From NCBI GenBank assembly GCA_013822345.1, contig PNKH01000031.1:1-64000 (forward strand): 64,000 bases of DNA, given 5' to 3'. Shown here in pieces: positions 10,472 to 57,019 of the stretch. The notes beneath the pieces were generated by a model, which saw only the letters and a program-made list of their open reading frames with translations, did not search any database and had not been told where the DNA came from. The stretch's first letter is position 1. The number at the start of each line of letters is the position of its first letter. This DNA is from Isosphaera sp. Its GTDB lineage: Bacteria > Planctomycetota > Planctomycetia > Gemmatales > Gemmataceae. The position numbers and the translations under genes are program-made.

Positions 10472-12925
10472 TCACGGCGCCCCGACCCGCACCCTGTTCG
10501 GGCCGAACTCCGGCGGGCCGCCGGGGAACCGCAGGAAGGTGGCGTCGTCGTCCGGGTTCGGCGGCGGCAGCTGCGGGGCCTCCAGCGGCCCGGACTTGAT
10601 CCCGGCGTTCCCCGCCTCGGCCCCCGGGCCGCGGGCGTTGTCGGCCGAGGTCACCCCGCCGATCGGCTCCTTCCCCCCCCGCAGCCGGGCGACCGGGAAC
10701 GCGCCGGCGAAGTAGTTCCGGGCCACCGTCACCTCGAACCGCCCGGCCGGCTGCGGCGTCCCCGGGGCGGCCCGCAGGTCGAAGTCCACCCCGGCCCGGC
10801 AGTTCAAGAAGGTGTTCCCGGTCACGTCCGCCTTGACCACCTTCCCGGTCGGCACCCGGAGGAACAGCACCCCCGCGTCCGCCCCGAAGAACCGGTTCCC
10901 GGTCACCTCCACGTCGACCGCCGGGCCGTCCACCCGGACCGCCGTCCCGTCCCCCTCGAACCGCCCGTTCCGGACCGCCACCCGGGCCGTGTCGACGTTC
11001 GCCGACGCGGCCAGCAGCACCCCGGTCTGGATCGGGCCGCCGAGCACCACCCGCACCCGGTCCAGCACCGCCGGCCCGCTGACGTTCTGCAACCGCACCC
11101 CGGCGGACCTCACCCGCCGGACCGTCACCCCCTCCACCGCCAGGCCCGGGCACGCCCCGCTCACCTGCACCCCCACGTCCGCCTTCCCGGCCCCGTCGAA
11201 CTCGACGTTCCGCAGCCGCAGCCCGTCCACCCCGACGGCGTCCAGCATCACCCCGCCCGACCCGTTGAACTCCACCACCGGCGGCCGGCCGTCGGCCGTC
11301 GCCCCCTCGATGACGAGGTTCTGGTGCCGGGCCCGGTCGAGCCGCACCCCGCCCTCCAGGTGGCGGGCGCGGGTCAGGGCGATGGTGTCCCCGGGCCGCA
11401 CCTTCCCGAGGGCGTCCCGGAGGGTCGGGACCGCCCCCTCCCCGTCCCCCACCACCACCCGCTGCGGCCCGGACGGGGTCCCCGGCTGGTCGGGCTTCGA
11501 CGGGCCGGAGAAGGCGAGGTACGCCCCGGCGGCCACCCCGGCGAGGAGCAGCAGGCCGGCCGCCGCGTACCAGACCCGGCGGGACCGCGGCCGGGCCGGC
11601 GGCGGAGCCGGGCGGCGGACGAGCGGGTCACTCCGGGCGGCCCGGCGGCCGGCCTCCTTCCGGTCCGCGGCCGGGGTGTCCTCGGCCGCGTCCAGGGTCT
11701 CCCAGACGGCGGCCGACGGGGTCGCGGCGACGGCCGGGGCGGCCGCCGGGGCCGGGGTGGCGGCGACCGCGGCCGGCTGCACCCGGGCGTACACCCCGGA
11801 CGCGGCCGCCCCGGGGGGCATGGTCGCCGGCCCCCGCCCGGCGGCCGCCGGCGACACCTGCGGCATCTCCCGGTCCGGCGGGACCGGGATCTGGGTCGTC
11901 AGCACCCGGTCGGCCAGGGCGGCCATCACCTCGGCCGGCGCCTGGTACCGGTCGGCCGGCTTCTTCGCGGTCATCTTCTCGACCACCGCGGCCACGTCGT
12001 CCGGCACCTCCGGGCGGAGCGACCGGACCGGCCGCGGCGGGCGGGTCTGGTGCCACAACAGCTTCTGGGCGACCGACCCCTCGGGGAACAGCGGGCTGCC
12101 GGTCAGCAGGTAGTAGAACGTCGCCCCCAGCGAGTAGATGTCGGCCCGGATGTCGACGGTGTGGCTCTCGATCGCCTGCTCCGGGGCGAGGTAGTCGGCC
12201 GTCCCGAGGACGTTCTCGTCGTACTTCTTGGTGAGCACGTCGTCCTCGTCGTGGAAGAACCGGGCCAGCCCGAGGTCGAGGATCTTCACCACCCCGGCCC
12301 GGTCCAGCAGGATGTTCCCCGGCTTGATGTCCCGGTGGACCAGCCCCATCTCGTGGGCGTGCCGGAGGCCCTCGGCGGCCCCGTACACGTAGTGGCAGGC
12401 CCGGAGCACGTCGAGCGGCCCGTGCCGCTTCACCAGGTCCTGCAGATTCGTCCCGTCGACGTACTCCATGACGAGGAAGTGGAGGTTCTCGTCCTGGTCG
12501 ATGTCGTAGGCCCGGACGATGTTCGGGTGGTCGACGGCGGCGACCGCCCGGGCCTCCCGGTAGAACCGCTCCCGGCTGCTCGGGTCGTCTGCCTTGGCCG
12601 CCGGCAGCACCTTGATCGCCACCCGCCGCCGCATCAGCTTGTGCTCGCACAGGAACACCTGGGCCATCCCCCCGGCCCCGAGCTTCTCGAGCACCTTGTA
12701 CTTGCCGATGGTGAACCGCTTGTACTTCCCCTGGAGGAGCTGCTCGGCCTGGAAGTAGGTCAGGAGCCCGTCCCGGACGAGCACCCCGGCCAGCTTCTGC
12801 GGGTCGTCGGGGACGCCGGACCGGGCGGACAGGGACTGGAGGTGGGTCTTGAGCTTGGCCTCGTCGGCGACCCCGCTCTTCCGGACCAGGTCGAGGAGCT
12901 CGTCGGCGGTGGCGGGGGCGGGCAT
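10472..12925 (-). CDS. Membrane Ser/Thr protein kinase with extracytoplasmic beta-helix domain
   Basis: An 817-residue Hanks-type kinase. Residues 1-70 are a helical planctomycete extension (TADELLDLVRKSGV). The kinase domain spans about 75-340, with glycine loop KLGAGGMAQVF, Lys105 in VAIKVL, catalytic Asp199 in HRDIKPGNILLD, DLG (Asp217) in place of DFG, and APEQ. A Pro/Ala-rich linker leads to one transmembrane helix (VWYAAAGLLLLAGVAAGAYL). The outside part has repeated short beta motifs (LVIEGATADG, LRLRNVEFDGAG, VEVTGNRFFG) typical of a right-handed parallel beta-helix, perhaps a carbohydrate sensor. The start at 12925 has GGAGAGGG upstream. Confidence 0.88.
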   Translation of the reverse strand: MPAPATADELLDLVRKSGVADEAKLKTHLQSLSARSGVPDDPQKLAGVLVRDGLLTYFQAEQLLQGKYKRFTIGKYKVLEKLGAGGMAQVFLCEHKLMRRRVAIKVLPAAKADDPSSRERFYREARAVAAVDHPNIVRAYDIDQDENLHFLVMEYVDGTNLQDLVKRHGPLDVLRACHYVYGAAEGLRHAHEMGLVHRDIKPGNILLDRAGVVKILDLGLARFFHDEDDVLTKKYDENVLGTADYLAPEQAIESHTVDIRADIYSLGATFYYLLTGSPLFPEGSVAQKLLWHQTRPPRPVRSLRPEVPDDVAAVVEKMTAKKPADRYQAPAEVMAALADRVLTTQIPVPPDREMPQVSPAAAGRGPATMPPGAAASGVYARVQPAAVAATPAPAAAPAVAATPSAAVWETLDAAEDTPAADRKEAGRRAARSDPLVRRPAPPPARPRSRRVWYAAAGLLLLAGVAAGAYLAFSGPSKPDQPGTPSGPQRVVVGDGEGAVPTLRDALGKVRPGDTIALTRARHLEGGVRLDRARHQNLVIEGATADGRPPVVEFNGSGGVMLDAVGVDGLRLRNVEFDGAGKADVGVQVSGACPGLAVEGVTVRRVRSAGVRLQNVSGPAVLDRVRVVLGGPIQTGVLLAASANVDTARVAVRNGRFEGDGTAVRVDGPAVDVEVTGNRFFGADAGVLFLRVPTGKVVKADVTGNTFLNCRAGVDFDLRAAPGTPQPAGRFEVTVARNYFAGAFPVARLRGGKEPIGGVTSADNARGPGAEAGNAGIKSGPLEAPQLPPPNPDDDATFLRFPGGPPEFGPNRVRVGAP

Positions 12926-12996
12926 CGGGAACCCTCTCCGGCGGGGCGGGCCCGGAACGGAGGTCGCGCGGGCGGCTCCCGGCGGGGGCCGCGGCA

Positions 12997-13002
12997 ACTA
13001 TA
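12997..13002 (-). promoter_or_regulatory. Possible -10 box for the beta-helix kinase
   Basis: On the minus strand TATAGT lies 72 bases before the ATG at 12925, in the 128-base gap between the two kinase genes. No convincing -35 element is seen. If used, the second kinase can be expressed independently of the first. Confidence 0.3.
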
Positions 13003-13053
13003 CGTCAGACCCGGGCGCGACGGGGGAGGGAATCCGCCGCCCGGGGGCGGGGG

Positions 13054-14940
13054 TCACCGCTCGGGGACGACGACGATCTGCTTGAGCAACCCCACCTCGA
13101 TCCCGGCGGTCCCGCGGGCCGGGTCCCGGGTCAGCTTCCCGCGGACCCGGATCGTCTTCCCGCTGTACTGCGCCAGGACCTCCTCCGGGGTCCGCCCGGA
13201 CACCTCGATCGCCCGCGGCTTGATCTGGGCGGCGAAGTTCCCCCGCTCCCGGGGGGCGGACCGCGAGTTCAGGTTGGTGGGGGCGTCGCCCCCGGTGGAC
13301 AGGACCTTGAACTCCACCGTCAGCACCGTCCCGGGCGGGTACTTGTTCGTCTCGTCCGGGGTGTACGCCGCCTCGTCGAACGCGGGGGTCGGGACCGAGT
13401 CCGGGTCCGGGCCCTTCTCGCCCCGGCCGATGTAGTACGCGGCCACCGCCCCGACCAACAGCAGCAGGGTGGCCAACACCCCGATCACGATGTACAGCCC
13501 GGTCCGCCGGGCCGGGACGACGATCACCGTGCCCGGCCCGGCCGCGGCCGCCGCGGCCGGCACCAGGTCGGGGCGGTTCGGGAGCGGGGAGGTCGGGGAC
13601 GCGCTGGCCCGGGAGGTGGACACCGGCCCGGCCACCGGCACCCCGGACGGGTCCCGGGTCGGGTAGGCCGGGTTCGACCCGCCGGACAGGGCCGGGAACG
13701 GGGTGGTGACCCCCGCCCCGCGGGCCACCCGGCCGGAGCTGCCCGGCCCCGCCGCCCGCCCGAACACCCCCCGCCCGGGGGCGAACAGCACCCGGGCCAG
13801 GCTCGGGGCCGACCCGGTCCCAGCTGCCGGCCCGGCCAGGGCCTGGACCAGCGGGCAGTGGACCGGCATCTCCTTCGGCGGCGGCGGGTCGGCCGGCAGG
13901 TCGGCCCACTCCCCGAGGGCGTCGGCCACCTCGATCGGCAGCTGGTACCGGTCGGCCGGGTCCTTCGCCATCATCTTCCGCAGGACCGCCAGGATCCCGG
14001 CCGGCACGTCCGCCCGGAACGACTCGACCGGCCGCGGCTCCCGGGTCTGGTGGGCGACCAGCTTGGCCGCGATCGTCCCGTCCGGGAACGGGGTCTGGCC
14101 GGTCAGCATGAAGTACAGGGTGCCGCCCAGGGCGTAGATGTCCGCCCGGATGTCGACCATGTTCGAGACGGCTTGTTCCGGGGCCAGGTAGTCGGCCGTC
14201 CCGAGGACGCACTTGTCGTCGTACTTCTCGGTGACGCTATCCTGCTGCTTGTTGAAGAACCGGGCCAGGCCCATGTCCAGGACCTTGATCACCCCGGTCC
14301 GGTCGAGCAGCAGGTTCCCGGGCTTGATGTCCCGGTGGACCATCCCGAGCTCGTGGGCGTGCTGCATCCCGACGGCCGACTGGGCGACGTAGTGGGCCGC
14401 CCGGACCGGGTCGAACCACCGCTTCTCCATCGCGTACCGGGCGACCACCTCCTGCAGGCTGGTCCCGTCGACGTACTCCATGACCAGGAAGTGGAGCTTC
14501 TCGTAGTGGTCGATGTCGTAGGCCCGGACGATGTTCGGGTGGTCCAGCGCCGCGACCGCCCGGGCCTCCCGGTAGAACCGCTCCTCGTTCGACCGGTCCT
14601 CCAGCTTCTCGACCGGGAGCACCTTCAGGGCGACGAGCCGCCGCATCAGGGTGTGCTCGCACAGGTACACCGCCCCCATCCCGCCGGCCCCGATCAGCTC
14701 CAGGAGCCGGTACTTCGACCCGATGGTGAACCGCTTGTACCGGCCGAGCTTGAGCTGCTTGGCCTGGAAGAAGGTGAGGAGGGACTCGCGGACGAGCAGG
14801 GCGGCGGCGGCGTCGACGGTGGTCGGGAGGGTGCCGGCCGCCCGCCCGCGGTCCAGCACCTCGTCGAGCCGGCCTTCCGGCAGCAGCCCGCTGCGGCGGA
14901 CGAGGTCGAGGAACTCGGGCACGGAGGCGGGTGCCGGCAT
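13054..14940 (-). CDS. Membrane Ser/Thr protein kinase with small C-terminal OB-like domain
   Basis: A 628-residue paralogue of the neighbouring kinase. Its N-terminal extension (VPEFLDLVRRSGLLPEGRLD) is related to that of the first. The kinase core has ELIGAGGMGAVYLCEH, VALKVL, HRDIKPGNLLLD, DMGLARF in place of DFG, and APEQ. A long Pro/Gly/Ala linker is followed by a transmembrane helix (TGLYIVIGVLATLLLLVGAV). The last 100 residues contain SGKTIRVRGKLTRDPARG and GLLKQIVVV, a beta pattern resembling an OB-fold; that reading is tentative. GAGG precedes the ATG at 14940. The two kinases share high identity in the core and probably arose by duplication. Confidence 0.88.
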   Translation of the reverse strand: MPAPASVPEFLDLVRRSGLLPEGRLDEVLDRGRAAGTLPTTVDAAAALLVRESLLTFFQAKQLKLGRYKRFTIGSKYRLLELIGAGGMGAVYLCEHTLMRRLVALKVLPVEKLEDRSNEERFYREARAVAALDHPNIVRAYDIDHYEKLHFLVMEYVDGTSLQEVVARYAMEKRWFDPVRAAHYVAQSAVGMQHAHELGMVHRDIKPGNLLLDRTGVIKVLDMGLARFFNKQQDSVTEKYDDKCVLGTADYLAPEQAVSNMVDIRADIYALGGTLYFMLTGQTPFPDGTIAAKLVAHQTREPRPVESFRADVPAGILAVLRKMMAKDPADRYQLPIEVADALGEWADLPADPPPPKEMPVHCPLVQALAGPAAGTGSAPSLARVLFAPGRGVFGRAAGPGSSGRVARGAGVTTPFPALSGGSNPAYPTRDPSGVPVAGPVSTSRASASPTSPLPNRPDLVPAAAAAAGPGTVIVVPARRTGLYIVIGVLATLLLLVGAVAAYYIGRGEKGPDPDSVPTPAFDEAAYTPDETNKYPPGTVLTVEFKVLSTGGDAPTNLNSRSAPRERGNFAAQIKPRAIEVSGRTPEEVLAQYSGKTIRVRGKLTRDPARGTAGIEVGLLKQIVVVPER

Positions 14941-15199: not shown

Positions 15200-17347
15200 A
15201 TGCGGCGCGAACTCGCGACGGTGACGGCCGTCTGCCCCCACGACTGCCCCGACACCTGCGGCATGGTGGTGACCGTCGAGGCCGGCCGGGCGGTGGCCCT
15301 CCGCGGCGACCCGGACCACCCGTTCACCCGCGGGTTCCTGTGCCAGAAGGTCGCCAACTACCTCGACCGGGTGTACCACCCGGACCGCGTCCTGCACCCG
15401 TTGCGGCGGGTCGGGCCGAAGGGGAGCGGTCGGTTCGAGCGGACCACCTGGCCGGACGCCGTCCGCGAGATCGCGGCGCGGTTCAAGTCGATCGCCGCCT
15501 CGCCCGACGGCCCGCAGGCGGTGCTGCCGTACAGCTACGCCGGGACGATGGGGAAGCTGATGTACGGGAGCCTCGACCGGCGGTTCTTCCACCGCCTCGG
15601 GGCCAGCCTGCTCGACCGCACCATCTGCGCCACCGCCGGGGCCGCCGGGTGCGACGTCACCCTCGGCACCCGGGCGATGACCGACCCCGAGGCCGCCGTC
15701 GACTGCCGGCTGATCGTCAACTGGGGGTCGAACACGGCGGTCACCAACACCCACTTCTGGCGGGTCGAGCACGAGGCCCGGAAGCGCGGGGCGAAGATCG
15801 TCACGATCGACCCCTACCAGTCGCCGACCGCCAAGCGGTCGGACTGGTGGCTCCCAATTCGCCCGGGGACCGACGCGGCGCTGGCCCTCGGGGTGATGCA
15901 CGTCATCTTCCGCGAGGGGTGGCAGGACCAGGCGTACCTGGACGCCCACTGCGTCGGGGCGGCGGAACTGCGGGCCCGGGTGCTGGCGGAATACCCGGTC
16001 GATCGAGTATCCGGGATTACGGGCCTCACGGGTGAAGAAATTGAGAAATTCGCACAGGATTACGCCCGGAGTAAACACCTCTTCGGCGGCCCCGCACTGA
16101 TCCGTGTGAACTATGGCCTGCAGCGGCACGGCGGCGGCGGGATGGCGGTGCGGACGATCGTCTGCCTGCCGGCACTGGCCGGGGACTGGCGCCACCCCGG
16201 GGCCGGGGCGCTGCTCAGCACGAGCAAGGCGTACCCGTTCGACGACCACTACCTGACGCGGCCGGACCTGGTCCCGCCCGGCACCCGCACCGTGAACATG
16301 GTGCAACTCGCGGAGGCCCTGCACGGGGAAGTCTCCGGCCCGCCGGTGCGGGCGCTGTTCGTCTACAACTCCAACCCCGCGGCGGTCTGCCCGGACCAGT
16401 CGCGGGTGCTGTCCGGGCTGGCCCGCGAGGACCTGTTCACGGTCGTCCACGACCAGTTCCGGACCGACACCGCGGACTACGCGGACATCGTCCTGCCGGC
16501 GACGACGCAACTCGAGCACTTCGACCTGCACGGCAGCTACGGGCACCTCTACGTCCAGGCCAACAACCCGGCGATCGCGCCGCTCGGCGAGGCGAAGCCG
16601 AACACCGAGGTGTTCCGGCTCTTGGCCCGGGAGATGGGGTTCGAGCCGGAACTGTTCGAGGAGACGGACGAGGAGCTGGCGCGGCGGTGCCTGGGTTCCT
16701 GGACCGCGGCCGTCTCGGCCGCTGAGCTGTCGAGCGGGAGCGGCCGAGACGGCCGCGGTCCAGGCAACGCCTTCGACGGCATCACGCTGGAGGCAACGGA
16801 GGCCGGGCCGGTGCGGCTGAACCTGCCGCGGAACTGGGCCCCGTTCGCCGACGGCCGGTTCCCGACGCCGTCGGGGAAGTGCGAGCTGTACTCGGAGCGG
16901 GAGGCCCGGGCCGGCCGCGACCCGCTGCCGCACTACGTCCCCCCGCACGAGGACCCGCAGACCCGGCCGGACCTGGCGGCGAAGTACCCGCTGCAGCTGC
17001 TCACCCCGCCGGCCCCGTCGTTCCTGAACTCGACGTTCGCCAACCTCGACCAGCAGCGGAAGGCGGCCGGCGAGCGGACGCTGGAGATCCACCCGGACGA
17101 CGCGGCGCGGCGCGGCGTCGCAGACGGGGAGATGGTGCGGGTGTTCAACGGCCGGGGCCGGTTCCGGGCGCGGGCGGTGGTGGCGGAGACGGTGAAGCCG
17201 GGGGTGGTGGTGTCGCTCGGGCTGTGGTGGCGGCGGTGGACGGACGACGGGGTGAACTGCAACGCGACGACGAGCACGGCGACGACCGACCTGGGCGGCG
17301 GGGCGACGTTCTTCGACAACCTGGTCGAGGTGGAGCCGGCCCGATGA
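15200..17347 (+). CDS. Molybdopterin-dependent oxidoreductase, BisC/FdhA-like
   Basis: A 715-residue enzyme of the DMSO reductase superfamily. Cys12, Cys16, Cys20 (CPHDCPDTC) and Cys48 (RGFLCQKV) form an N-terminal 4Fe-4S site. The bis-MGD domains include NWGSNTAVTNTHFWRVEH, ALFVYNSNPAAVCPD and the C-terminal EIHPDDAARRGVADGEMVRV. There is no signal peptide, so it is probably cytoplasmic. Residues about 500-523 (starting SWTAAVSAAEL) are encoded by an inserted copy of repeat A and should be absent from relatives. Electron partner and substrate are not shown by the context. The stop overlaps the GNAT start (ATGA). Confidence 0.88.
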   Translation: MRRELATVTAVCPHDCPDTCGMVVTVEAGRAVALRGDPDHPFTRGFLCQKVANYLDRVYHPDRVLHPLRRVGPKGSGRFERTTWPDAVREIAARFKSIAASPDGPQAVLPYSYAGTMGKLMYGSLDRRFFHRLGASLLDRTICATAGAAGCDVTLGTRAMTDPEAAVDCRLIVNWGSNTAVTNTHFWRVEHEARKRGAKIVTIDPYQSPTAKRSDWWLPIRPGTDAALALGVMHVIFREGWQDQAYLDAHCVGAAELRARVLAEYPVDRVSGITGLTGEEIEKFAQDYARSKHLFGGPALIRVNYGLQRHGGGGMAVRTIVCLPALAGDWRHPGAGALLSTSKAYPFDDHYLTRPDLVPPGTRTVNMVQLAEALHGEVSGPPVRALFVYNSNPAAVCPDQSRVLSGLAREDLFTVVHDQFRTDTADYADIVLPATTQLEHFDLHGSYGHLYVQANNPAIAPLGEAKPNTEVFRLLAREMGFEPELFEETDEELARRCLGSWTAAVSAAELSSGSGRDGRGPGNAFDGITLEATEAGPVRLNLPRNWAPFADGRFPTPSGKCELYSEREARAGRDPLPHYVPPHEDPQTRPDLAAKYPLQLLTPPAPSFLNSTFANLDQQRKAAGERTLEIHPDDAARRGVADGEMVRVFNGRGRFRARAVVAETVKPGVVVSLGLWWRRWTDDGVNCNATTSTATTDLGGGATFFDNLVEVEPAR
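16698..16764. repeat. Inverted repeat, family A (copy 2), inside a coding region
   Basis: Perfect 26-base arms (16698-16723 and 16739-16764) with a 15-base loop lie within the molybdopterin oxidoreductase reading frame, which stays open through the element. The arms share the CTGGACCGCGGCCGTC core of copies at 3911 and 35334, with a C-to-T type change in the middle on both arms, keeping the pairing intact. Confidence 0.92.
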
Positions 17348-23124: not shown

Positions 23125-23874
23125 TCACTTCGCCCGGACGGTGGACAGCCCGCCGTCCACGCTGATGACCTGCCCCGTGACCCACGTCGTCTTCGGGTCG
23201 AGGAGCCAGGCGATCGCGGCGGCCACGTCTGCCGGCTCCCCCACCCGGCCGAGCGGGTGCAGCGCCGTCGACGCCTTCAGGGCCAGCTCGTTCCCGGTGA
23301 TCTTCGCCGCCAGGGGCGTGCGGACCAGCCCGGGGGCGACGGCGTTCACCCGCAGCCCCCGGCCGGCGTAGGTCGCGGCGGCCGAGATCACCAGCCCGTT
23401 CACCCCCGCCTTCGCCGCCGCGATCGCCTCGTGGTTCGCCAGCCCGATCCGCGTGGCGACGGTCGACATCAGCACCACCGACCCGCCGCCGGTCATCGCC
23501 CTCGCCGCCGCCCGCACGACGTGGAACGCGGTCAGCAGGTTGACGGCCAGCGTGTCGGCGAACTCGCGGTCGGTGGTCAGGTGTGCGGGCTTCAGCAGGA
23601 TCGACCCACACAAGTTGGCGACCCCGGCGAGCGAGCCGAACGCTTCCGTGGCCCGGGCGAACGCCGCGTCCACGGCGGCGGGGTCGGTGGCGTCGAGCGG
23701 GTGGGTGACGCACTCTGCGCCGAGCGACTGGAGCTCCCCCGCCAGCGCGTCGAGGCGGTCGGCGGTGCGGCCGGCGAGCAGTAGGCGGGCACCGGTCGCG
23801 GCGAGGGTGCGGCAGAGCTCGGAGCCGATCCCGCCGGCGGCACCGACGATCAGGTAGGCGGGGGTGTCGGGCAT
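23125..23874 (-). CDS. SDR family protein lacking the canonical catalytic tyrosine
   Basis: A 249-residue short-chain dehydrogenase/reductase. The NAD(P) motif GAAGGIG is at 11-17, then Asn112, Ser137 (VLMSTVA) and Lys155 in HEAIAAAKAG. The position four residues before that Lys, normally Tyr (YxxxK), is Ile151. The C-terminal WVTGQVISVDGG is classic. It is either a non-canonical SDR subgroup using another residue or a non-dehydrogenase. Its start lies 25 bases inside the 3' end of the glycosyltransferase gene, showing operon membership. A TATCAT-like box on the minus strand (23912-23917) might add a local promoter. Confidence 0.85.
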   Translation of the reverse strand: MPDTPAYLIVGAAGGIGSELCRTLAATGARLLLAGRTADRLDALAGELQSLGAECVTHPLDATDPAAVDAAFARATEAFGSLAGVANLCGSILLKPAHLTTDREFADTLAVNLLTAFHVVRAAARAMTGGGSVVLMSTVATRIGLANHEAIAAAKAGVNGLVISAAATYAGRGLRVNAVAPGLVRTPLAAKITGNELALKASTALHPLGRVGEPADVAAAIAWLLDPKTTWVTGQVISVDGGLSTVRAK

Positions 23875-25082
23875 GGGGGTGCGGGCTCGGGTGACGGTTC
23901 GGTGTCACCCGATGATAGGCCGGGGTGGGCCCGCCCCTTCCACCCGACCGGCCGGCCGGCCACCGCCCGGTACACGGCGTACCACTGGACGGCGAGGAGC
24001 AGCAGGACGCCGACCGGGTGGAGGAGTTCGCCCGTTAGCGATTGGCGGAACCGGACCGTTACGTGCGCCCGGACCCCGTAACCCAGCGCGATCGCGGCCA
24101 GAACCGGCGACAGCCCATCGGCCCAGAGGACGGCTGGGCAGAGCAGGAGTGCCAGCGGCAGTACCTGCCCGAGCAGCAGCACGGCCGTCCAGAACCCGAT
24201 CTGGCCGGTCGCCGCCATCCCCTCCCGGGCGTTCTTCGCCAGCCCATTCCACACCCCGGCCGCCGAACGGTACATCCGGCACGTCGCCAGGCCCGCCGCG
24301 TCGCAGATGTCGGTGAAGAACCCGGCCCGGCGGTAGGCCCGCGGTAGTGTCAGCCCGTCGTGCAGCGACGCCTTGACCGCCGCGTGCCCGCCTACCTTCT
24401 GGTACGCGGCCCGGGTCGTGACGAAGAACTGCCCGCACCCGACCCCGAGGCCGACCCACCGGACGTTGCGCATCAGCCCGATCGGGAGCCAGCACAGCAG
24501 CAGCCAGTGGATCAGCGGGATGAGGAGCCGTTCGAGGAGCGTGCCGGTCTCCTGGCGGGGGAACCCGCTGACCAGTTCCGCCCCGGACGCCCGCAGGAAC
24601 AGCACCATCCGGGCGAGGGCGTCGGGTTCGAGCCGCACGTCGGCGTCGAGGAAGACGAACACGTCGTGGCGGGCCAGCTTCGACAGTGCGAAGCAGGCGT
24701 GCTGCTTCCCGCACCACCCGTCCGGCAGCGGCGGGGCCGATTCCAACCGGACGCGGGGATCGGTCGCGGCGATCTCCCGCACCACCTCGGCGGTGCGGTC
24801 GGCCGAGTGGTCGTCGAGGACGATCACTTCGAGGTCGATGTCCTCCGACGCGAGTACGGAGGCCAGGCACGCGGCGATGCCGTGCTCCTCGTTCCGGGCC
24901 GGGATCAGGACGGAGACCACCCCCGAGCGGGGGGCGTGAGCCCCCTGAGCGCTTCCGTGCTCAGGGGGCTCACGCCCCCCGCTCGGGAGTTGCGGCGGCT
25001 CGCGGAACAGGATCGAGTTACACAGATACATCAGGGCGGGGACGGCGGCGCAGCCGAGGCACACCCAGGCGACGGCGGTCAC
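23850..25082 (-). CDS. Family 2 glycosyltransferase, CrtQ-like, with an in-frame repeat insertion
   Basis: A 410-residue membrane glycosyltransferase. An N-terminal helix (AWVCLGCAAVPALMYLC) precedes the GT2 domain: VSVLIPARNEEHGIAACLAS, VIVLDDHSADRTAEVV, the DxD-type FVFLDADVRL and LVSGFPRQETG. Several C-terminal helices follow. This architecture fits CrtQ-type carotenoid glycosyltransferases such as the staphyloxanthin enzyme, and the neighbours are CrtI-type desaturases and an acyltransferase. Residues between the first helix and the GT2 domain (around LPSGGREPPEH) are encoded by repeat G. The GTG start overlaps the acyltransferase stop (GTGA). Confidence 0.82.
   Translation of the reverse strand: MTAVAWVCLGCAAVPALMYLCNSILFREPPQLPSGGREPPEHGSAQGAHAPRSGVVSVLIPARNEEHGIAACLASVLASEDIDLEVIVLDDHSADRTAEVVREIAATDPRVRLESAPPLPDGWCGKQHACFALSKLARHDVFVFLDADVRLEPDALARMVLFLRASGAELVSGFPRQETGTLLERLLIPLIHWLLLCWLPIGLMRNVRWVGLGVGCGQFFVTTRAAYQKVGGHAAVKASLHDGLTLPRAYRRAGFFTDICDAAGLATCRMYRSAAGVWNGLAKNAREGMAATGQIGFWTAVLLLGQVLPLALLLCPAVLWADGLSPVLAAIALGYGVRAHVTVRFRQSLTGELLHPVGVLLLLAVQWYAVYRAVAGRPVGWKGRAHPGLSSGDTEPSPEPAPPCPTPPPT
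24922..24987. repeat. Inverted repeat, family G, inside a coding region
   Basis: Perfect 28-base arms (24922-24949 and 24960-24987) with a 10-base loop lie within the glycosyltransferase reading frame. The core is CCCGAGCGGGGGGCGTGAGC. The element is 66 bases, exactly 22 codons, and the frame is open throughout. Confidence 0.92.
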
Positions 25083-25891
25083 GGCCGGTCCCCCGGGGCG
25101 GCGTGCGACGGGTCGAACCGCTTCCCCCGCGCCCACGCCTTCACCCGCCGCCACCCGTCGTACACCCCGCCGACCCCGGACCGCCCGGCGAGCAGCTCCG
25201 TGAACCGCCCGGGGTCGCGGGTCACCGCCTCGGCGCCCAGCGCATCCAGGTTCCGCGTCATCGCCGCTTCGACCAGCGCCGTCCAGTCGCGGCCGGACAG
25301 CCCGGGGTGGTCCGCGGCTCGCACCGGCTCGCCGACCCGGACCAGCGCCTCGGGGGTGCGCTCCGTCCAGAACGTGTACTCCAGGGCGAGCGGGACCAGC
25401 ACCGCCGCCGGCACCCGGGCCATCAGGTGCCCGACCCCCGAGCTGATCCCGAGCGGCCGCTCCCGCACGTCCGTGAACCGCCCCTGGGCCGTCACCCAGT
25501 ACGCCCGCTTCGGCTGTGACAACACCGCCGCCCCGGTCCGGACGAACTCGGCCGCCCCGCGCAGGCTGCGGGTGTCGACCGGGACGAACCCGAGTTTCGT
25601 CAGGAACCCGTACCCCTTCACGGCCTCCGCGTCGATCGCCGCGAACTCGTCCCGGTCGGCGGTGAGCCGCGCCAGGACGAGGCAGACCATCGGGTCCCAC
25701 CACGACGGGTGGTTGAGCACGACCAGCAGCGGGTCGTCGCCGGGCGGCGGGAACGGGTGCCCGGACTTCGACACCCGGACGGCGTGGAAGTGCTTCCGGA
25801 CGTACCGCCGGGCGTACCACTTGAACAGGCGGTACAGCCACCGGGACCGGGGCGGCAGGGCCGGGGCGGGGGCCAGGCGGTCGGGTGGCAT
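25079..25891 (-). CDS. PlsC-like acyltransferase
   Basis: A 270-residue lysophospholipid acyltransferase-family protein. The HX4D catalytic motif is in VVLNHPSWWDPMVC, followed by LTKLGFVPVDTRSLRG and WVTAQGRFTDVRERPLG (the acceptor-binding blocks). A hydrophobic N-terminal stretch suggests membrane association. In this operon it could acylate a glycosylated carotenoid, the step done in staphyloxanthin synthesis by an unrelated enzyme (inference); phospholipid synthesis is the alternative. It lies 6 bases after the serine hydrolase gene and its stop overlaps the glycosyltransferase start. Confidence 0.82.
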   Translation of the reverse strand: MPPDRLAPAPALPPRSRWLYRLFKWYARRYVRKHFHAVRVSKSGHPFPPPGDDPLLVVLNHPSWWDPMVCLVLARLTADRDEFAAIDAEAVKGYGFLTKLGFVPVDTRSLRGAAEFVRTGAAVLSQPKRAYWVTAQGRFTDVRERPLGISSGVGHLMARVPAAVLVPLALEYTFWTERTPEALVRVGEPVRAADHPGLSGRDWTALVEAAMTRNLDALGAEAVTRDPGRFTELLAGRSGVGGVYDGWRRVKAWARGKRFDPSHAAPGDRP

Positions 25892-27095: not shown

Positions 27096-28667
27096 TCACG
27101 CGGTGGCGACCGGCTCCGGGGCGGGGGCGGGGCTCTTGCCGGCGACCCGGTCGCGGTCGAGGGCGTCGGCGGCGATCCACCCGGACATCAGCACCATCGG
27201 CATCCCCGGCCCGGGGTGCGCCGCCCCGCCGGCCAGGTACAGCCCGGCCACGTCCTTCGACCGGTTCGCCGGCTTGAACGCCCCGCGCCACCGGCCGTGG
27301 CTCGCCAGCCCGTAGATCGCCCCGTCCAGCACCCGGTACCGGTCGTGGATGTCCCGCGGCGTCAGCGCCGCCTCGAAGACGATCCGGTCCTCGATGTCCG
27401 GCATCTTCCCCGTTGTCTTCAGCTTGTCAAGGATGACGCGGCGGTACGCGGGGAACATTTCCGCCCAGTCGTGGTGCGGCCGGAGGTACGGGGTGTGGAC
27501 GAGGACGTACAGGGCGTCCCCGCCGGACGGGGCGGTCTCCGGCTCGGTCCGGGCGGTGGACGCGAGGTAGCAGGTCGGGTCCGGGGCCGGCTCGCCCCTG
27601 CGGTAGATGAACTCGAACTCCTCGTGCGGGTCGCGGCTGAACACGAACCCGTGGTGCAGGAGGTGGTCGTACCGCTTACTCAGCCCGAGGTACAGGACGA
27701 CCCCGGAGCACGCCGCCTCGTACCCGCGGCGGCGCTCGAACCGGCGGGCGGCGCTCGGGGCGGACTCGGCGAGCAGCTCGCGGTGCGTCCGGACCGCGTC
27801 CGCGTTCGACACCACCGCCGCCAGGTCCACCACCTCGCCGGCGTCCGTCTCGACCCCGGTCACGCGCCGGCCGGCGGTGTCGGTGAGGACACGGCGGACA
27901 CCCGTCCCGGTGCGGTACTCGACGCCGAGTTCCTCGCCGAACCTGGTCAGCGCCTCGGGCACCGCGCGGGTGCCGCCGCGGGGGTACCAGATCCCCTCGG
28001 TCGTCTGCATGTGGGCGATCGAGCAGAGGACCGCCGGCGACTGATCGGGGCACGACCCGACGTACTGGGTGAAGTGGTCGAGCATCTGCGCGACCTGCGG
28101 GTCCGGGTTGTACTTCCGGACCGTCCCGGCGACCGACCGGCCCATCCGCATCCGGAGCACGTCCCAGAGCAGCGACGGCGAGAACCCGAACTTCGGGTCG
28201 ACCATGTCGCGGATGCCGCCGATCGACTTCCAGAAGTAGTACCGGTCCGAGATGCGGTGGAGCCGTTGGGACAGGGCGGAGAACCGGCGGTACCCGTCGC
28301 CGGCGCGGGTGCCGGGGGCGCGGGCGTCGAGGGCGGCGGCCATCTCCTCGACGTCCTCGACCAGGTCGAGGACGGACCCGTCGGCGAAGAAGCACCGCCA
28401 CTGCGGGTCGAGGCGGACGAGGTCGAGGTAGTCGTCGGGGTCGCGGCCGGCCTCGGCGAAGACGCGGCGGAGGACGCTCGGGACCGTGAGGATGGTCGGC
28501 CCCATGTCGAACCGGAACCCGGCCTCGCTCAGGACGGCCGCCTTGCCGCCGAGCCACGGGCTCTTCTCGAACAGGACGACCTTGTACCCGCGGGCGGCCA
28601 GGACGCACGCCGCCGCCAGCCCCGCGAGCCCGCCGCCGACCACCCCGACCCGGTCCGCTCCGCTCAT
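27096..28667 (-). CDS. CrtI-type carotenoid desaturase/oxygenase (CrtP-like)
   Basis: A 523-residue FAD-dependent amine-oxidoreductase of the phytoene desaturase family. The dinucleotide motif VGVVGGGLAGLAAACVLAA is N-terminal, followed by FEKSPWLGGKA and FRFDMGPTIL. The C-terminal FAD block is GLYLAGGAAHPGPGMPMVL. AIYGLASHGRWRGAFKP is typical of COG1233 carotenoid enzymes. With a second such gene upstream plus glycosyl- and acyltransferases, it most resembles the CrtP-like terminal oxidase of C30 carotenoid pathways reported in planctomycetes, though which of the two is desaturase or oxygenase is uncertain. Confidence 0.82.
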   Translation of the reverse strand: MSGADRVGVVGGGLAGLAAACVLAARGYKVVLFEKSPWLGGKAAVLSEAGFRFDMGPTILTVPSVLRRVFAEAGRDPDDYLDLVRLDPQWRCFFADGSVLDLVEDVEEMAAALDARAPGTRAGDGYRRFSALSQRLHRISDRYYFWKSIGGIRDMVDPKFGFSPSLLWDVLRMRMGRSVAGTVRKYNPDPQVAQMLDHFTQYVGSCPDQSPAVLCSIAHMQTTEGIWYPRGGTRAVPEALTRFGEELGVEYRTGTGVRRVLTDTAGRRVTGVETDAGEVVDLAAVVSNADAVRTHRELLAESAPSAARRFERRRGYEAACSGVVLYLGLSKRYDHLLHHGFVFSRDPHEEFEFIYRRGEPAPDPTCYLASTARTEPETAPSGGDALYVLVHTPYLRPHHDWAEMFPAYRRVILDKLKTTGKMPDIEDRIVFEAALTPRDIHDRYRVLDGAIYGLASHGRWRGAFKPANRSKDVAGLYLAGGAAHPGPGMPMVLMSGWIAADALDRDRVAGKSPAPAPEPVATA

Positions 28668-28799: not shown

Positions 28800-30377
28800 T
28801 TATCGGGCGGCGGCCGACGCGCCTGCCGGGAGTTCCCCCGCCCCCGGCGCCCCCAGCCAGGCGGCGTCCCGGCCGAAGTCCGCGAGGAGCAGCCGGCTCG
28901 TGATCCGTGCACTCTCGTAGATCACCGGCAGGCCGCTGCCCGGGTGCGTCCCGCCGCCGACGAGGTACACCCCGTCCAGGTCCTCGAACCGGTTCCGCGG
29001 GCGGAGGTGGAGCATCTGCCGCCAGGTGTGGGCGAGGTTGAACGTCGCCCCGCGGTGGACCGCGTACCCCGCCTCCCAGTCCGCCGGCGTCACCACCTTC
29101 TCGAACCGGATCCGCCGCTCCACGTCCTCGATGCCGACCTTCCGCAGTTGCTGCAACAACCGCGCCCGGAACGGCCCGGCCTCCTTCGCCCAGTCCACGT
29201 TCGCCCGCTGGTGGATCACGTGCCGGTGCGTCACCGGGGCCAGCACGTACAGGGTGCTGCACCCGCGCGGGGCCAGAGTGTCGTCGGTGACCGCGGCGTT
29301 CTGCACGTAGAACGACGGGTCGGCCGACAGGACGTGCCGGGTCTCGATGTCGGCGAGGTTCTCGGCGTAGTCGGCCGCGCAGTGGATGGTGTGGTGCGGG
29401 ACGTGGTCCTGCCGGCCGTCGAGGCCGAGGTACAGCATGAACGTCGAGCAGGAGAACTTCTTCCGGGCGAGCTTGGCGTCCGTCCACCGGCGGCGGAGGT
29501 GGTCCGGGACGAGCTTCGTCATCGCGTGGGCGAAGTCGGCGTTGATCACGACCGCGTCCGCCCGGTACTCGCTGCCGCTCGTCTTCACGCCGACCGCCTT
29601 CCGCCCCTCGAACAGCAGTTCCGTCACCTCCTCGCCGAGCGAGAACGTGACGCCGAGTTCGCGGGCCACCCGGGCCATCCCGTCGCTGACCGCCGAGCAC
29701 CCGCCGTACGGGTGCCAGACGCCGAACTCGTACTCCAGGAACGACAGGATGGAGAACAGGCTCGGGCAGTGGAACGGCGACATCCCGAGGTACTTCGACT
29801 GGAACGAGAACGCCAGCCGGACGCGGTCGTCGGAGAAGTACCGGCCGAGTTCGCTGTCGAGCGACTTCCACGGGCGGAGGAGCGGGAGGAGCTTCAGCAG
29901 GTCCCACCGGGCGAGGTCTCGCCAGCCGAGGAAGGGGCTTTCCAGGGTCGGCCGGAACTGTTCGAGCTTGACGCGGTTGTCGGTCAGGAACCGGCGGACG
30001 TTGGCGGCGTCCGCGGGGGAGAGTTTCGCCACCTCGGCTTCGAGGCGCGACACGTCGGGGGTGCAGTCGAGTTGCCCGCCGGCCCCGAACATGATGCGGT
30101 ACTGCGGGTCGAGCCGGACCATCGGCACCTCGCGGTGCAGGTCGCGGCCGATCAGCTTGAAGATGCGTTCGAGGACGAGCGGGTAGAGGAAGAACGTCGG
30201 CCCGAGGTCGAAGCGGAAGCCGTCGTGCTGGACGGCGGAGCAGCGGCCGCCGACGTGGGGCAGGCGCTCGACGACGTGGACGCGGAGGCCGCCGCGGGCG
30301 AGGAGGAGGGCGGCGGCCAACCCGCCCGGCCCGGCCCCGATGACGAGCACCGAGTCCGGGCGGTTGCGGGAAGTCAT
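28800..30377 (-). CDS. CrtI-type carotenoid desaturase (CrtN-like)
   Basis: A 525-residue CrtI-family flavoenzyme. The FAD motif VLVIGAGPGGLAAALLLARG is followed by LPHVGGRCSAV and FRFDLGPTFFLYP. The C-terminus has GATFNLAHTWRQMLHLRP and VYLVGGGTHPGSGLPVIYE, like bacterial diapophytoene/phytoene desaturases. I infer a CrtN-like role, desaturating a C30 precursor. The ATG at 30377 is chosen because it begins just before the FAD motif; a TTG 15 codons upstream is possible. It is the first carotenoid gene of the minus-strand unit that continues to 22665. Confidence 0.83.
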   Translation of the reverse strand: MTSRNRPDSVLVIGAGPGGLAAALLLARGGLRVHVVERLPHVGGRCSAVQHDGFRFDLGPTFFLYPLVLERIFKLIGRDLHREVPMVRLDPQYRIMFGAGGQLDCTPDVSRLEAEVAKLSPADAANVRRFLTDNRVKLEQFRPTLESPFLGWRDLARWDLLKLLPLLRPWKSLDSELGRYFSDDRVRLAFSFQSKYLGMSPFHCPSLFSILSFLEYEFGVWHPYGGCSAVSDGMARVARELGVTFSLGEEVTELLFEGRKAVGVKTSGSEYRADAVVINADFAHAMTKLVPDHLRRRWTDAKLARKKFSCSTFMLYLGLDGRQDHVPHHTIHCAADYAENLADIETRHVLSADPSFYVQNAAVTDDTLAPRGCSTLYVLAPVTHRHVIHQRANVDWAKEAGPFRARLLQQLRKVGIEDVERRIRFEKVVTPADWEAGYAVHRGATFNLAHTWRQMLHLRPRNRFEDLDGVYLVGGGTHPGSGLPVIYESARITSRLLLADFGRDAAWLGAPGAGELPAGASAAAR

Positions 30378-56924: not shown

Positions 56925-57019
56925 AGGATTTCAGATTGCAGATTTGTGATTGACGATTGAAAGACCGGAAGTCGCTGTGTCTTTCAATCGTCAATCACAA
57001 ATCTGCAATCTGAAATCCT
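56925..57019. repeat. AT-rich inverted repeat, family M
   Basis: Perfect 40-base arms (56925-56964 and 56980-57019) with a 15-base loop. The arms are AT-rich (AGGATTTCAGATTGCAGATT at the start), in sharp contrast to the GC-rich surroundings. They fill the convergent gap between rpsT and purB, and the purB stop codon (57020-57018) overlaps the right end. Confidence 0.95.

Follow-up and report, generated by a model that had tools for sequence, protein, structure and literature searches.

In a planctomycete bacterium, taken to be a member of the Gemmataceae, a short repeated DNA palindrome is read as part of an intact glycosyltransferase gene. The window, i.e., the whole 64,000-nt stretch of DNA that was analyzed, belongs to a draft genome of 7.47 Mb in 226 contigs (the own genome below), and its relevant features are collected in Table 1. 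An earlier note on this DNA had described a 66-base element with 28-base perfect arms within the gene. Its coordinates and overall length were correct and the arms are indeed perfect, but each of them measures 29 nt and, when one mismatch is allowed, they reach 32 nt. Folding of positions 24919-24990 (72 nt) as RNA gave -81.5 kcal/mol with a z of -12.45, and none of 200 shuffles was as good. Within the minus-strand gene, the palindrome starts at the third base of codon 32 and ends at the second base of codon 54. The frame of the host gene is stop-free throughout the element, and stops are present in one of its three coding-strand frames.

Table 1. Positions of the palindromes, the host gene and neighboring genes in the window.
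Feature	Position	Strand	Details
Family G palindrome	24922-24987	-	66 nt, part of codons 32-54, peptide PSGGREPPEHGSAQGAHAPRSG
Arm 1	24922-24950		29 nt, contains mini-hairpin GGGGGC-GTGA-GCCCCC
Loop of family G palindrome	24951-24958		8 nt
Arm 2	24959-24987		29 nt, perfect reverse complement of arm 1
Glycosyltransferase family 2 gene	23850-25082	-	410 codons + stop, GTG start
N-terminal helix, residues 2-25	25008-25079	-	predicted model, pLDDT ~95; membrane helix by sequence
Catalytic domain Glycos_transf_2, residues 57-229	24396-24914	-	PF00535, 1.4e-23
Upstream gene	25079-25891	-	NCBIfam: no match
Phytoene desaturase family gene (crtI_fam)	27096-28667	-	TIGR02734, 1.2e-116
Second phytoene desaturase family gene (crtI_fam)	28803-30350	-	TIGR02734, 5.5e-164
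Family A palindrome	16698-16764	+	in frame in another coding region; hairpin 67 nt

Two further observations were made in the window. A 41-nt perfect palindrome at 56925-57019 (AGGATTTCAGATTGCAG...) has a GC content far below that of its surroundings, and its cluster comprises four copies in the hairpin sample described below, none of which has an open frame or lies in a gene. At 11905-14805, a pair of stretches separated by about 2,000 bases is 72-84% identical across several hundred bases and probably represents a gene duplication.

The host gene is intact, with all 410 codons open. Its GTG start overlaps the stop of the upstream gene, which we take, judging from its sequence, to be lysophospholipid-acyltransferase-like. 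The protein shares 62-68% identity with its same-genus orthologues over its length, and D90-D91 and D146-D148 are among the conserved columns that it retains. CrtQ, the staphyloxanthin-type enzyme, is a family-2 glycosyltransferase near carotenoid genes. In the present case, a PF00535 protein (the last 23 residues were left out of the scan) sits near two crtI-family desaturase genes, so the designation "CrtQ-like" is fair by context, and in that sense the enzyme can be called CrtQ/CruG-like. No NCBIfam equivalog model reaches its cut-off for the protein; the best ones, HpnB and CruG, are far below. In a predicted structure based on a 23-sequence alignment (mean pLDDT 91.7), the helix of residues 2-25 is followed by coil and the first strand starts at residue 55. 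The insert thus lies between the membrane helix and the catalytic domain, which begins at residue 57, as had been proposed. A pLDDT below 50 over at least three residues is found only at residues 42-51, inside the insert, which is predicted to be disordered.

Using a threshold of E <= 1e-60, the glycosyltransferase was detected in 18 of the 19 genus genomes, the own genome included; in genome G003, it is a fragment only, without the linker. The linker between helix and catalytic domain comprises 9-15 residues in the 14 same-genus orthologues that are without a full element, and long linkers are found in the own genome (25 residues), G001 (24), G004 (24) and G015 (27). The comparison with orthologues suggested by the earlier note turned up the residues of the own insert in none of the same-genus proteins whose linker was seen. 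Instead, the insert of G015 belongs to another multi-copy palindrome family with matches in seven of the 19 genomes, and that of G001 and G004 to a third family with matches in 14. The insertion in G001 and G004 is probably one event, since the two copies are 87% identical and the two genomes form a pair in the PriA tree (support 84/77). Half units of the G015 palindrome family are present in the linkers of G011 and G018, where none of 500 shuffles was as good in either case, compared with 23 to 464 of 500 for five other linkers in the same test. As three palindrome families occupy one short linker, at least three captures have taken place in it.

About three native residues are left outside the element in the own linker, so the net gain relative to the relatives is 10-16 codons. 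The native linker is therefore shorter than in the relatives, and simple insertion does not describe the outcome. The earlier statement that the element is exactly 22 codons long is right for the hairpin and wrong for the change in the protein, in which a linker of 25 residues stands against 9-15 in the 14 orthologues; the picture of a clean 66-base insertion, with a gain of 22 codons, received no support. Among the relatives, none close enough to provide an exact empty site was found, and the linkers of the closest orthologues, which are about 70% identical at the protein level, do not align. The recurrence of other palindromes in the same linker, and the shared reading frame described below, were absent from the earlier, sequence-only note.

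A search of the own genome with family G resulted in 87 matches, and as 40 of 53 candidates were scored, the counts are lower bounds: at least 18 doublets and several solo halves, in addition to copies of a sister family, G'. The doublets extend over 49-86 nt by hairpin extent, mostly 60-70, and their consensus consists of GGCGAGCGGGGGGCGTGAGCCCCCTGAT, a short loop and the reverse complement. Because each arm contains GGGGGC-GTGA-GCCCCC, the element resembles a pair of REP units in inverted orientation. Families G, G' and H have GGCGA ends in common, and family G is distinct from the family A repeat, as had been claimed. Matches to family G were found in 13 of the 19 genus genomes, including the own genome.

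Hairpins of all families were collected from the window and 80 stretches of 20 kb, 1.664 Mb in total. The sample contained 371 hairpins, or about 223 per Mb, which by extrapolation would amount to about 1,665 in the own genome. When triplets were shuffled within 600 nt in the first 864 kb, no hairpin was left, against 212 observed. According to a home-made codon model trained here, which is not equivalent to curated gene calls, 37 of 363 sampled hairpins lie in frame inside coding sequence, compared with 1826 of 3000 random positions (61%; p ~1e-81). The depletion of hairpins in genes is strong, but some have survived there. With a stricter in-gene rule, the count in the first 864 kb was 15 of 207 and the window copy was missed. 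The earlier note had cited the family A copy at 16698 as another element read in frame, and had concluded that such capture is not a one-off; the reading of that copy was borne out, and the 37 sampled palindromes together with eight of 18 family G doublets bear out the conclusion.

Family G and its sister families are less depleted in genes than other palindromes. Families G, G' and H are located in genes in 19 of 69 cases, versus 18 of 294 for all others (p = 2.4e-6). For family G by itself the figures are 8 of 18, and for the other sampled hairpins 33 of 356 (p = 2e-4); when the window copy is left out, family G has 7 of 17 (p = 8e-4); the proportion of own-genome family G copies in genes showed no significant difference from that of random positions (p = 0.22). 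G-like places of nine relatives were in genes less often (17 of 48) than random nearby positions (563 of 798), the places being the long matches among the matches listed (49 taken, 48 classed and one at a contig edge). Frame openness was considered as the cause of gene entry by families G and H and rejected: in a comparison in which some clusters were chained together and families were later re-assigned, clusters that had more frames open than G has were found in genes less often, so open frames are not a sufficient reason.

The named hosts of in-frame family G are the present glycosyltransferase, an RND pump, a Ser/Thr kinase, CobW, PSCyt2/PSD1 and PriA, while two of the eight host genes gave no Pfam match. 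A G' copy sits in an E2 acyltransferase gene. The insert is situated between two Pfam domains in PriA, CobW and PSCyt2/PSD1 (family G) and in E2 (G'), precedes the Pfam domain in the glycosyltransferase, and falls inside the domain model in the pump and the kinase.

Filling of the same linker by different families is clear in two genes. One is the glycosyltransferase and the other, presumably encoding an acyl-CoA carboxylase subunit judging from its sequence, carries family H in the own genome and a G-like element at the same linker of the 82%-identical gene in G015. Such filling probably occurs in further genes. The loop of the RND pump, which by analogy to the AcrB fold we take to lie between two membrane helices, varies from 17 to 68 residues across 14 genomes (15 of 20 loci were used, leaving out partial and paralogous ones, and 14 matched the pattern). 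It folds with z <= -4 in seven of the 14, and the multi-copy repeat status of its insert is established for the own genome only. The loops of G002, G001 and G006 (L261, L262, L266), 52-68 residues long, give the impression, by eye, of having received more than one insertion, and one of them has an H-like peptide.

The CobW linker contains family G both in the own genome and in G003 (72% identity), which may be one event. In the own copy (L012, C5:57445-57548) the doublet is followed by an extra half unit, and the two are read as QGAHAPRSP twice in the CobW protein. In the kinases of the own genome and G015, which are 32% identical, family G is located between the N(V/I)L strand and DFG. In PriA, G014 has the insert of the own genome as well, and G009 has it in a decayed form, so captured copies can outlast speciation. 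In G014 (L233; L232 in the own genome) the PriA palindrome is intact though both of its arms differ from the own ones at several stem positions, as though one arm had been recopied from its partner.

The in-gene copies are entered in a preferred frame. Of the 21 in-gene G/G'/H copies in the own genome, 16 begin at one and the same codon position; the open frames predict nine (p = 0.00025). In 15 of 19, the translated frame exceeded the remaining open ones in hydrophilicity. The SGGR frame is used by seven of eight in-gene family G copies in the own genome and by 15 of 17 in-gene G-like copies of the relatives, whose frames were read from the peptides. This adds up to 22 of 25 in nine genomes (p = 8e-5 versus one half), of which a few may share descent; one half serves as the null, two frames of the consensus first arm being open. 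The second arms of in-gene copies use all three frames and the lengths in genes are often no multiple of three, so it is only the entry frame that is constrained. The preference for lengths divisible by three that the earlier note had suggested looking for was not significant (12 of 21 G/G'/H-type copies in genes vs. 18 of 44 outside; p = 0.17). The shared entry frame would be expected if the residues are under selection, and also if the target has a codon-phase bias.

As for the mobility of these elements, own palindrome families flank the own Y1 transposase (RAYT-like) genes on both sides at four of five loci, which points to RAYT mobilization of other palindrome families in the own genome. 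The loci L111, L112, L113 and L115 (contigs C75, C49, C14 and C35) are flanked by four different families and make up a neat series of REP-RAYT pairs. Among 33 Y1_Tnp loci (five own and 28 out of a longer list of relatives' loci), none showed a G arm within flanks of up to about 1.5 kb. Among 65 G/G'/H copies there was no excess of target duplications of 3-8 nt. Flanking 2-nt matches numbered 18 versus about 10 expected, and we tentatively put this excess down to palindromic ends continuing outwards.

The window segment, as a member of a multi-copy family that is read in frame in an intact gene and is absent from the orthologues seen, is in our view quite likely a REP-doublet-like repeat that entered the linker of the glycosyltransferase and serves there as a roughly neutral replacement linker. 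According to this reading, palindromic elements would be mobile and land across the genome, and most of the landings in genes would be purged. The survivors would be those in permissive, flexible linkers that offer a stop-free, mostly hydrophilic frame, where the captured element would be tolerated as a more or less neutral substitute for the native linker. Different families would be caught again and again in the same linkers because these stay permissive. A bolder version seems rather doubtful to us at present. In it, G, G' and H would form a standing source of linkers in this genus that enter in one preferred frame, take over from the native linker and give way to one another there in the course of evolution, so that orthologous proteins of different species would carry linkers made of different mobile DNA.

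The repeated filling of the same linkers could also reflect targeting at the DNA level rather than tolerance of the protein, former REP linkers being preferred landing or recombination sites at which one REP replaces another. By eye, the native linker residues beside the element are fewer than in the relatives at three loci; the same-family half units in the glycosyltransferase linkers of G011 and G018 and the extra half unit in CobW would suit such replacement as well, and REPs are said to be insertion-sequence targets in the main text of PMC3733652 (its reference 12). We nevertheless consider this explanation unlikely. Most of the 14 short glycosyltransferase linkers fold no better than their own shuffles, so no trace of a palindrome is seen in them, and two kinases with 32% identity were struck at the same turn, which indicates structure rather than shared DNA.

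The remaining explanations concern what keeps the element in place. The use of a single frame in 22 of 25 in-gene family G copies, the preference for a hydrophilic frame (15 of 19 for G/G'/H) and the PriA insert kept in G014 and decayed in G009 could all mean that the captured peptide, SGGREPPD...QGAHAPRSP, was selected for improving or regulating the host protein. The host genes are, however, unrelated, and some frame bias is forced because one of the three first-arm frames holds a stop. In addition, most G copies are very alike and may be too young for selection to have tested them, and we regard adaptive linkers as distinctly improbable. Even less probable appears a role at the RNA level, with a hairpin 95 nt into the coding region controlling the operon at the level of translation or decay, and its coding capacity being incidental. 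The extreme stability of the fold would agree with such a role, as would the complementarity kept within copies: in 22 aligned G/G' doublets the arms differ by 0.68 within a copy versus 2.47 between copies, and none of 5000 permutations was as low. However, recent transposition also yields arm identity, most genus orthologues are without a hairpin at this position, and the frame preference would be left unexplained. The draft state of the genome, in 226 contigs, leaves some room for an assembly or annotation artefact, i.e., a pseudogene or a chimeric hairpin, but this is hardly credible in view of the 410 open codons, the orthologue identity over the full length, the retained D90-D91 and D146-D148, and the occurrence of the same family in frame in eight different genes.

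Insertions of this kind are already known, since in-frame palindromes have been reported from Rickettsia and, as intragenic REP dimers, from several species. In its main text, the study of Di Nocera et al. (2013; PMC3733652) describes intragenic GTAG/CGTC REP dimers as inverted pairs in unrelated genes that encode 20-30 residues, reports different REPs at about the same site in recB of two Xanthomonas species, and mentions that Planctomycetes have REPs and that several species have intragenic ones. Family G is similar to these dimers in forming short inverted-pair palindromes in unrelated genes. GTAG/CGTC-tagged REPs are defined there by an unpaired GTAG or CGTC motif at one unit end, whereas the unit ends of family G have neither GTAG nor CGTC (by eye, in the consensus); some family G copies contain CGTC in the unit loop, not at the end. 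Unlike the findings for family G, the corresponding sections of that study give one same-site case and no shared frame.

The RPE of Ogata et al. (2000, 2002), in the descriptions given in PMC2229807 and PMC3733652, are elements of 105-146 bp fused in frame in many conserved proteins, and one tested RPE-bearing enzyme was active. Family G is RPE-like as a palindrome read in frame in several unrelated genes and, compared by description only, differs in being mostly 60-70 bp long, GC-rich and planctomycete. REPINs, according to the corresponding sections of Bertels and Rainey (2011; PMC3116915), are thought to be mobilized by RAYTs, the RAYT genes being flanked by REPs, and REPs are described there as extragenic. 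Family G resembles them in consisting of two inverted REP-like units with a short spacer, in its many similar copies and in occurring as singlets and doublets, and other palindrome families of this genome do flank RAYT-like genes. In contrast to the REPINs of that description, none of the 33 RAYT-like loci was flanked by family G, and in contrast to extragenic REPs, eight of the 18 doublets are in genes. In searches confined to open-licence papers, no other work on palindromes inside planctomycete genes came up, a weak indication of absence. As far as that literature shows, what is new is the presence of these planctomycete families in genes, the refilling of the same linker by different families and the shared entry frame.

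With more than 1,000 such elements in the own genome by extrapolation, and with the same linker filled by different families across species, these palindromes offer a countable natural experiment on the conversion of mobile DNA into protein sequence, the linkers that can bear it and the reason for the success of a single frame. With other hairpin families in the same linker of relatives, DNA of this kind appears to have supplied proteins with new linkers more than once.
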